Assembly (NCBI RefSeq): GCF_021295095.1
Contig: NZ_JAJLQX010000001.1
Coordinates: 265,082 to 329,081 of the forward strand
From: Phocaeicola oris
GTDB lineage: Bacteria; Bacteroidota; Bacteroidia; Bacteroidales; Bacteroidaceae
DNA length: 64,000 bases
Direction of reading: 5' to 3'
The notes below the pieces were generated by a model. The model had not been told where the DNA came from. It made no database searches and was given only the letters and a program-made list of their open reading frames with translations. Shown here piece after piece: positions 560 to 64,000 of the stretch. Every line of letters begins with the position of its first letter. The stretch's first letter is position 1. Both the position numbers and the translations under genes were made by a program.

Positions 560-691
560 CGCTCAACTGATGCATATCAATCGTTCAACTCATCCGCATG
601 AATCGTTCAACTCATCCGCATGAATCGTTCAACTCATCCGCATGAATCGTTCAACTCATCCGCATGAATTACTCAACTCATACGTATCACT
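560..691. repeat. 22-bp tandem array R1 (six units)
   Basis: Six contiguous 22-bp units at 560-581, 582-603, 604-625, 626-647, 648-669 and 670-691. Units 2 to 5 are identical and carry the core TTCAACTCATCCGCATGAAT. The first unit is diverged and the last ends in ATACGTATCACT. The array lies between two convergent genes (TrpB2 and the rhodanese-thioredoxin gene). There are no unique spacers, so it is not a CRISPR. It belongs to the same family as R2 to R6. Confidence 0.95.
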
Positions 692-761
692 TTTTCAATT
701 TATAAAGAAAAAAAGATAGGTAGATCCGTATGACCTACCTATCTGATATATATGACAAAGT

Positions 762-5569: not shown

Positions 5570-5653
5570 AGTGATACGTATGAATCGCTCAACTCATCCG
5601 CATGAATTGCCCAACTCATCCGCATGAACCGGTTAACTCATACGTATCACTTT
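5570..5653. repeat. 22-bp array R2 with perfect 15-bp inverted ends
   Basis: The array opens with AAGTGATACGTATGA (5570-5584) and closes with its exact reverse complement TCATACGTATCACTT (5639-5653). Between them, 22-bp units start at 5587, 5609 and 5631; the first two carry CAACTCATCCGCATGAA. It is the most compact and regular member of the R1-R6 family and lies between two genes on the same strand. Confidence 0.95.
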
Positions 5654-11171: not shown

Positions 11172-11447
11172 ATGACTAAAGCAGATATCGTTAATGAAAT
11201 TGCAGAAAAGACAGGAATGTCTAAGCCAGAAGTATTAAATGTGGTTGAAGCATTTATGGTAAGTGTGAAAAACTCTCTCACAAATGGAGAGAATGTCTAT
11301 CTCCGCGGCTTCGGCAGTTTCATAGTTAAAACACGTGCACAGAAGACAGCACGTAACATCTCGAAGAACACTACGATTATTGTTCCGGAGCATAAAATTC
11401 CAGCCTTCAAACCAGCTAAGACTTTCACTATTTCAGTAAAGAAATAA
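11172..11447 (+). CDS. HU-family DNA-binding protein
   Basis: A 91-residue histone-like protein. It has the helical N-terminus TKADIVNEIAEKTGMSKPEVL, the GENVYLRGFGSFIVKTRAQKTARNI beta-arm entry and the C-terminal IPAFKPAKTF, all standard for HU/IHF. It bends and compacts DNA. It is followed after about 35 bases by a 29-residue basic ORF and then a strong hairpin, so the two small genes form one transcript. Confidence 0.96.
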   Translation: MTKADIVNEIAEKTGMSKPEVLNVVEAFMVSVKNSLTNGENVYLRGFGSFIVKTRAQKTARNISKNTTIIVPEHKIPAFKPAKTFTISVKK

Positions 11448-13310: not shown

Positions 13311-13474
13311 ATGTACCAAAGATCTATTTATATTATTGTATATCGAAATGGTATAAGATGAATTGGGGGTAAATCTTCATAAGCAATCAAATTACATAAG
13401 CTATTGGAAGCTATGAGATGATGAATCTATGAGCCTATCTATATTGATTAAATTTATCATCAAGATGAACCGAC

Positions 13475-13602
13475 AAAGTGATACGCATGAACCGTCCAAC
13501 TCATACGGATGACTTTAACAACTCATGCGGATGAATTAACTAACTCATCAGCATCACTTACTCAACTCATCAGCATCACTTCAATCGCTCATACGTAACA
13601 AA
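13475..13602. repeat. 22-bp array R3 (degenerate)
   Basis: It opens with AAAGTGATACGCATGAA (13475-13491). Units follow at 13493, 13515, 13537, 13559 and 13581 with the 22-bp period intact. The unit ends drift from GGATGAAT to CAGCATCACT, and the last unit is decayed. The rest of the 585-base gap between rng and the next gene shows a terminator and two promoter boxes but no ORF. Confidence 0.92.
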
Positions 13603-31565: not shown

Positions 31566-31713
31566 AAGTAATACGTATGAGTTTTCAAAATCATCAGAAG
31601 TTTTGAGCAACTCATACGTATCAATCAAACGATTCATGCGCATCACTTTGTCAATTCATGCGCATCACTTTATCGGTTTATGCGTATCACTTTGTCGGTT
31701 TATGCGTATCACT
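31566..31713. repeat. 22-bp array R4
   Basis: It opens with an inverted-type unit AAGTAATACGTATGAG (about 31566-31581). After a decayed stretch, five exact-length units follow at 31604, 31626, 31648, 31670 and 31692, most ending in GCATCACT or GTATCACT. It lies downstream of the minus-strand cupin gene, yet the units keep the same orientation as in the other arrays. The remaining bases between the riboswitch promoter and the array show nothing coding. Confidence 0.92.
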
Positions 31714-31753
31714 TTTATCATTCTTCAAAACGACTTTTTAAAGTAACACTTAT

Positions 31754-39687: not shown

Positions 39688-39797
39688 AAAAAGTGATACG
39701 TATAAACCGTCTAACTCATACGCATGAATCGATCAACTCATACGCATGACCGAGGAAAGTGATACGCATGAATTGATCAACTCATACGCATCACTTT
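39688..39797. repeat. 22-bp array R5 (composite)
   Basis: It opens with AAAGTGATACGTATAAA. Two units with CAACTCATACGCATGA-type cores follow, then a second opening unit (39756-39770) and a short closed module ending CATACGCATCACTTT (39797). It thus looks like two arrays joined end to end. It lies between two plus-strand genes; the flanking bases (39510-39687 and 39798-40003) show no ORF. Confidence 0.9.
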
Positions 39798-45370: not shown

Positions 45371-45520
45371 AAAGTGATACATATAAGTCAGTCAACTCAT
45401 CAGCATGAATCAGTCAACTCATCAGCATGAATCAGTCAACTCATCAGCATGAATCGGTCAACTCATCAGCATGAATTTGTCAACTCATACGGATCACTTT
45501 TACAACTCATACGTGTTGAC
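45371..45520. repeat. 22-bp array R6
   Basis: It opens with AAAGTGATACATATAAG (45371). Units follow at 45389, 45411, 45433, 45455 and 45477: the first three are identical (GTCAACTCATCAGCATGAAT core), the fourth differs at one base, and the fifth is a closing form ending ACGGATCACTTT. A further decayed unit follows. It lies downstream of the minus-strand HxlR gene but keeps the common orientation. Bases 45171-45370 show nothing coding. Confidence 0.95.
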
Positions 45521-57843: not shown

Positions 57844-57967
57844 AATTTAGGTGTATCACGCACGTGAACCACATGTACCACGCACGTGAACCACATGCAC
57901 CACGCACGTGAACCACATGTACCACGCACGTGAACCATGTGAACCACGTACGTGAACAACCTAAATT
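57844..57967. repeat. 22-bp array R7, CACGTG variant
   Basis: Five cores stand exactly 22 bp apart: CACGTG at 57861, 57883, 57905 and 57927, and TACGTG at 57949. The intervening text is ACCACATGTACCACG-like. The array is bounded by AATTTAGGT (57844-57852) and its exact inverse ACCTAAATT (57959-57967). It shares no sequence with R1-R6 beyond a palindromic core but has the same period and a similar place between genes. The preceding gap after ribE shows only an imperfect hairpin (TCCTTCAC/GTGAAGGA). Confidence 0.93.

Positions 57968-63913: not shown

Positions 63914-64000
<87 letters not shown>

Follow-up and report, generated by a model that had tools for sequence, protein, structure and literature searches.

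REP/BIME sequences and REPINs with their RAYT are species-specific palindromic intergenic repeats that reach high copy numbers and have the gene for the cognate protein beside a copy. Sequence-specific nucleoid proteins with scattered sites include IHF, Noc and MatP with its matS sites, and in mycobacteriophage L5 the stoperators are single asymmetric sites oriented with transcription. HU-HIG proteins, reportedly given that name by Burroughs and colleagues in 2017, have to our knowledge no established targets. In Porphyromonas gingivalis, the BrickBuilt MITE is made of 23-nt bricks, has 19 copies in ATCC 33277 and carries leader and tail ends that resemble IS5-family ISPg elements (PMC4596501). 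The PINSR repeat of Prevotella intermedia and Prevotella nigrescens is 188 bp long, has 177–184 copies and is described as being without terminal inverted repeats (PMC4755523). The P. gingivalis HU protein PG0121 binds a 77-bp inverted-repeat DNA and prefers loops and bulges (PMC3969353). Here, we describe intergenic arrays of palindromes with a 22-bp period in Phocaeicola oris and weigh what reads or spreads them.

The window, a stretch of 64,000 nucleotides on contig NZ_JAJLQX010000001.1 (assembly GCF_021295095.1), contains the arrays listed in Table 1. In R2, AAGTGATACGTATGA at 5570-5584 is followed by two CAACTCATCCGCATGAA units and closed by a perfect 15-bp inverse at 5639-5653, just as a preliminary description of this DNA had it, and R1 and R3-R6 were likewise found in place with the period of R2 in more or less decayed form. 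That the centres face one side of the helix holds approximately, given that 22 bp slightly exceeds two turns of B-DNA (about 21 bp). The ends of family A, read off the sequence rather than taken from a formal scan, are AAGTGAT/ATCACTT. R2 has terminal inverted repeats of 15 bp, as MITEs do, yet each of these ends is half a unit of the lattice. The window contains a seventh array, absent from the preliminary description, which belongs to a second family, B, and lies upstream of a beta-galactosidase-like gene. The window also holds two cobalamin riboswitches (Rfam RF00174, 17003-17214 and 31249-31424), a partial 5S rRNA gene (63914-64000) and a classical HU gene (11172-11444) whose preceding 140 bp contain no array.

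Table 1. Palindromic arrays in the window (positions counted from its first nucleotide).
Feature	Position	Strand	Description
R1	560..692	.	family-A array with six cores spaced by 22 bp
R2	5570..5653	.	family-A array with four cores spaced by 22 bp and ends perfectly inverted over 15 bp
R3	13474..13602	.	family-A array, five cores and a decayed end
R4	31566..31715	.	family-A array, decayed
R5	39688..39797	.	family-A array
R6	45371..45520	.	family-A array
family-B array	57852..57957	.	period of 22 bp with the core CACGCACGTG; outer edges formed by the inverted ends AATTTAGGT/ACCTAAATT

A pattern search of the whole genome (2,975,682 bases), which the preliminary description had called for, found the AACTCATNNGNATSA unit 248 + 303 = 551 times, against 1 + 0 matches for the reversed-pattern control, so the objection that the arrays might be confined to this window falls away. 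To sample arrays, we took the window and a further 39 stretches of 20 kb each, together 844 kb (844,000 bases) or 28% of the genome, and found 53 family-A arrays with at least two cores. Neighbouring cores no more than 120 bp apart were spaced at exactly 22 bp in 151 of 167 pairs and at a multiple of 22 bp in 162, and only three of the 70 arrays of any family in this sample had their midpoint inside a predicted ORF. Among relatives, the other 200 of 201 genomes of the taxonomic family gave at most seven matches each, and a two-unit family-A match occurred in none of 20 same-genus genomes. The opening-plus-unit pattern of family A had no match in the genome collection, where records of the own genome were possibly excluded. 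Within the set tested, family A is restricted to this species.

The period is shared by other words. Tandem Repeats Finder, run on the 844-kb sample, returned further palindromic cores, again at 22 bp: CACGYRCGTG (family B), GTTTCAC-N4-GTGAAAC (family C) and TCTCAATTGAGA (family D). A pattern census of the same sample, limited to arrays with two units or more, counted 51 for A, 6 for B, 18 for C (one of them really a B array), 1 for D and 0 for E, and none of the A–E words formed arrays in 382,824 bases of the relative G201. Scattered C arrays sit between A half-units and in phase with them: 42 of 45 A–C core pairs lie a multiple of 22 apart, and the three A–B pairs lie 20 modulo 22 apart. Words B, C and D were known as scattered arrays before HU-HIG genes were searched.

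Beyond this species, a generic word-free pattern (TCA-N6-TGA three times at 22-bp spacing) was found in at least 106 stretches of a collection of 84,980 species genomes. The titled matches among those listed (n = 80) comprised 74 from Bacteroidales (one named only to the class Bacteroidia), one from Chryseobacterium and five from other phyla; among the matches listed, generic 22-bp arrays thus occur mainly in Bacteroidales, and their words differ from species to species. A strict pattern for scattered arrays hit 10 of 392 Bacteroidales genomes in an even sample, with its reversed control hitting four, and the counts were 184 in the own genome, 29 in G032, 16 in G013, six in G493, three in G619 and one in each of five genomes. 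Some of these arrays lie in larger repeats. A dispersed element of G032, present about 40 times (loci L269-L296), consists of a four-unit array with conserved flanks on both sides; its middle linkers lie in either orientation (by eye) and, in L274, L280 and L294, a Lin1244_N gene comes after it. In Prevotella micans (L117 and L166), the arrays lie mid-way in a roughly palindromic repeat of about 250 bp. Lin1244_N (PF14297) was rejected as a partner: it adjoins the G032 elements, but the own genome lacks it.

Phages carry the arrays as well. In IMG/VR, the generic pattern occurred in 45 stretches, 25 of which have a HU-HIG gene with an array in its 140 bp upstream; a stricter script placed 21 arrays before a HU-HIG gene, eight before a primase and 16 elsewhere. 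A phage contig, L211, has a HU-HIG gene with A-like words upstream. The phage arrays ahead of primase-like genes lie 6-17 bp before them (L303, L305, L316, L318, L325, L326, L336 and L338), and where scanned these genes encode Zn_ribbon_DnaG with DUF6371.

Because phage arrays stood before HU-HIG genes, we searched the own genome for the Pfam HU-HIG family (PF18291), which includes proteins of the HU/IHF superfamily whose C-terminal part is a probable winged helix (HU-wHTH). Five full-length matches exceeded the curated cut-off (E-values 2.4e-31 to 1.6e-27), next to three HU-like matches and one below the cut-off, and a broader profile added no sixth full-length HU-HIG. Each of the four HU-wHTH genes found in the genome carries a palindromic array ahead of its start codon, and the four words differ: B at L345 (C11), C at L347 (C6), D at L344 (C13) and a new word, E, at L343 (C16). 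The best self-match of the region upstream of L344, L345 and L347 is at a shift of 22, and in none of 1,000 shuffles was the score at that shift reached; L343 has its best shift at 23 and a palindrome of 13 bp. The fifth HU-HIG protein, which is without the wHTH, has no array upstream.

We extended this to 23 genomes, 16 of them picked because they bear arrays, which have between 1 and 41 HU-HIG matches each and 346 in all. Of these matches, 130 were examined (30 loci returned and 100 picked by frame length), and together with the five own genes they gave an upstream-period test over 24 genomes in which 134 of 135 genes were scored, L430 being left out. The test uses a direct-shift score (shifts 12-40), which replaced a strict outer-arm lattice score that missed many visible arrays. 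The best shift is exactly 22 at 71 of 84 genes with a wHTH versus 7 of 50 without, a class boundary that is rough because two of the 84 proteins have only 156 and 159 residues; within 21–23 the counts are 79 of 84 versus 13 of 50. Split by protein length instead, with 185 residues as the lower bound of the long class, a best shift of exactly 22 is seen at 71 of 82 long versus 7 of 52 short proteins, and a shuffle p ≤ 0.01 for the period at 72 of 82 versus 7 of 52. Spacings between dyad centres peak at 11, 22, 33, 44 and 55 in the long-protein class only. In seven genus members without family-A pairs, their array-free status being judged on that pair alone, the best shift is 22 at 19 of 23 HU-wHTH genes. 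In G013, the HU-wHTH genes L374 and L438 share a TTTTTAATGCGTCAGCCCTGA stretch upstream, and a palindromic array is visible at L438, although the period score overlooked it. A PDB profile search assigned positions of about 28-124 to HU/IHF and gave weak matches to winged-helix chains (E about 0.004) for positions of about 133-199, which together with an alignment point to a putative C-terminal winged helix in the array-bearing class.

The position of these arrays relative to the promoter is regular. A TANNTTTG box lies within 75 bp before 55 of the 71 upstream arrays, versus 4.9 expected by shuffling, and mostly 8-30 bp before the array. In Bacteroides, TAnnTTTG is the -7 element given for the primary sigma factor (PMC7366714), and since the box stands just before the array, the array probably begins near the transcription start.

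By association, then, an array lies just downstream of the promoter at most HU-wHTH genes examined, and in several genomes, including the own one, the same word is also scattered over intergenic sites. We consider it fairly probable that the arrays are lattices of half-sites recognised by HU-wHTH proteins, each paralogue having its own palindromic word. Half-sites would lie about 11 bp apart in alternating orientation, which gives one palindrome every 22 bp. Judging from the fold families, the HU part would dimerise and bend the DNA and the winged helices would read the two halves of a core, with neighbouring dimers stacking every 22 bp along one face of the helix and bending it in phase. On the array at its own promoter, over the first transcribed bases, an HU-wHTH protein would act as a repressor of its own gene (autoregulation). 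At scattered, promoter-distant sites it would anchor or bend the chromosome rather than switch genes. Some observations are unexplained by this mechanism: the phage HU-HIG proteins L321 and L334 have arrays upstream though they are without a wHTH, and the wHTH is not singled out by the words. Word similarity tracks wHTH similarity weakly, and HU similarity is at least as good a predictor (partial correlations of 0.079 versus 0.097); covariation of word and protein was dropped as support, being weak and mostly due to orthologues. Also counting against the reading are the phage arrays that precede a primase gene, the best shift of 22 at 7 of 50 genes without a wHTH, the departure of L343 from the period of 22, and the reversed-control hits of the strict pattern in four genomes.

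The link between scattered arrays and particular genes comes from word matching, in which 40 scattered arrays of 16 genomes were compared with 83 HU-HIG upstream regions; L123, L124, L128 and L197 were excluded as having a HU-HIG gene in their own locus. In 21 of 40 tests, versus about 1.6 expected from the number of own genes (summed by hand), the region that matched best was one from the array's own genome, and 20 of the 21 score above 21, the remaining one (L116, G638) being weak with a score of 13. In the own genome, the match was to L345 for 3/3 B arrays, to L347 for 3/3 C arrays and to L344 for the single D array (1/1). The B array at 57852-57957, for example, best matches the region upstream of the HU-wHTH gene at G000 C11:131352-131945. 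Elsewhere, same-genome matches were obtained for Parabacteroides STD2_99 (4/4), RUG12482 (3/4), Prevotella micans (2/2), P. veroralis (1/3), Parabacteroides PH5-46 (1/2), P. faecalis (1/1) and G652 (1/1). They were missing for 19 of the 40 arrays, from genomes whose HU-HIG genes were only partly fetched (1 to 11 genes were used per genome, none for G619), including G013 (0/3), G032, G493 and G648 (0/2 each) and G644, G649 and G619 (0/1 each).

Family A, the largest of the families, stands apart in this respect. Neither of the two own family-A arrays compared (0/2) matched an own HU-wHTH promoter well, and PF18291 and the broader profile revealed no partner gene among the HU genes of the 95%-complete assembly. 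A classical HU gene (L350, L499) was considered and rejected, since the A array lies some 800 bp ahead of it, which is too far. That R1-R6 are HU-wHTH sites is suggested by analogy of architecture and by the in-phase nesting with family C. The cooperative protein binding proposed in the preliminary description hence gains strong circumstantial support from the arrays before HU-wHTH genes and from the word matches, but for family A itself the partner is still missing.

The scattered arrays have a different setting from those at HU-wHTH genes. In the own genome, promoter boxes lie beside scattered arrays on 4 of 140 sides versus 7.1 expected, and the four include the C array before its cognate gene, so an operator function cannot simply be transferred to the scattered arrays. 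No gene family recurred in more than four of the 125 flanking ORFs scanned out of 172 (the 47 longest were left out), with HU-HIG being one of the families found four times. We infer that the scattered copies may have an architectural role; selfish spread is the main rival and would be compatible with such a role.

In the selfish account, the arrays are repeats of the MITE/REPIN type moved by an unidentified transposase, and HU-wHTH genes are where they originated or are tolerated. We regard this as a real possibility, although one that we would rather doubt than adopt. The own intergenic gap is longer than the syntenic G201 gap at seven of nine array sites, and together with the few promoter boxes this makes it look as if the scattered copies had been added to space that is poor in promoters. 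The conserved flanks of the roughly 40 G032 copies, the 250 bp or so common to the Prevotella micans copies and the position of the family-C arrays, of which about 15 of 17 were judged by eye to be nested in A arms, point the same way. Against it, Y1/RAYT transposases had no match in the own genome (G000) or in G032, G493, G635, G639, G642, G644, G645 and G648. An origin from RAYT/REP was rejected on similar grounds, as the own genome is without Y1_Tnp and Y1/RAYT genes, present in 18 of 40 genomes, do not follow the arrays. No target-site duplication was seen at sites too diverged to judge (relatives share 73% DNA identity overall). Selfish spread alone also leaves unexplained why 22-bp arrays stand at 71 of 84 HU-wHTH promoters, and at 19 of 23 in the seven genus members without family-A pairs.

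Another account has HU-wHTH proteins reading shape, as cruciform or bent DNA, rather than a word, with the words being homogenised by template switching at palindromes. PG0121, a classical HU, provides a precedent, and the two orientations of the G032 middle linkers and the weak correlation of word and protein would fit. However, scattered words match the cognate promoter and not those of other paralogues in the same genome (B with L345, C with L347, D with L344), and arrays are far commoner in the class with a wHTH than in that without, which makes shape reading unlikely.

The large RNA hairpin that the preliminary description offered as its second option, acting as a terminator, attenuator or mRNA stabiliser, is very improbable. 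The arrays at HU-wHTH genes follow a promoter and are hence probably transcribed, and convergent gene pairs are somewhat over-represented around arrays in the own genome (22/66 versus 44/236, p = 0.017). The wider set shows no such excess (16/77 versus 39/212, in a count that left out eight of 106 loci: L122, L149, L155, L162, L177 and L178 by title, L200 and L208 by look), and arrays occur in all gene orientations. Among 32 arrays between co-directional genes, mismatches of the G-U type have no strand preference (14 versus 10 units, 7 versus 7 arrays). Rfam gave three matches in the window, none of them at an array, and none in 14 array loci, and the 22-bp phase is held although the words differ, as it is in DNA lattices. 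A last account, in which palindromes that arose by chance were neutrally duplicated in tandem, could cite orthologous arrays of sister species that differ by exactly one 22-bp unit (L125/L136, L114/L191), but is scarcely credible, given that unrelated words share the period, the palindromy, the inverted ends and one gene context.

Recognition of the arrays by HU-wHTH proteins can be extended, as a tentative and rather speculative proposal, to a multi-channel DNA address code of Bacteroidales, in which each of many HU-wHTH paralogues would read its own word in a phased lattice of about 22 bp, keep its dose through an operator array at its own promoter and organise the chromosome through anchor arrays elsewhere, with words rewritten by lineages and phages taking part with HU-HIG and an array. 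The anchors would number tens to hundreds, be promoter-free and occur where a word has spread. Should every HU-HIG protein recognise the array that precedes its gene, sequence alone would suffice to predict hundreds of protein-to-word pairs. What this expanded family of nucleoid proteins does in dominant gut bacteria could then be tested directly, species-specific palindromic repeats in Bacteroidales would be explained without a transposase, and a natural set of phased DNA-binding modules would be at hand.

The literature that we searched contains no report of the 22-bp arrays, of a HU-HIG target or of their pairing. To judge by that literature, the pairing of HU-HIG with arrays is new; HU-HIG proteins and palindromic repeats were already known separately. 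Within that literature the statement that no described Bacteroidota element has this layout also holds, with BrickBuilt and PINSR as the nearest published intergenic repeats of Bacteroidota. Like BrickBuilt, the arrays are intergenic tandem arrays of short bricks with inverted ends in Bacteroidales, but family A has a period of 22 bp and ends unlike the printed BrickBuilt TIRs (PMC4596501). The array at the HU-wHTH promoter of L343, with its 23-bp period, shares the period of the BrickBuilt bricks, so a kinship is conceivable. PINSR is likewise a lineage-specific intergenic repeat but, compared by its description only, has no 22-bp lattice described (PMC4755523). The nearest HU precedent is PG0121 with its 77-bp inverted repeat (PMC3969353).

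Among the systems of other bacteria and phages, REP/RAYT is similar in that the arrays are palindromic, intergenic and present in many copies, with a candidate cognate gene by one copy. However, the candidate here is a HU-wHTH DNA-binding protein and not a Y1 transposase, several palindromes form a strict 22-bp lattice, and the family-A ends, read by eye, carry neither the GTAG nor the CGTC tag. The L5 stoperators share with the arrays an operator and scattered copies for one protein, whereas the arrays are palindromic lattices. If the proposal holds, the working mode would resemble that of IHF, MatP-matS and Noc, a nucleoid protein reading many scattered sites, but with many paralogues per genome, each having its own multi-site word and that word at its own promoter.
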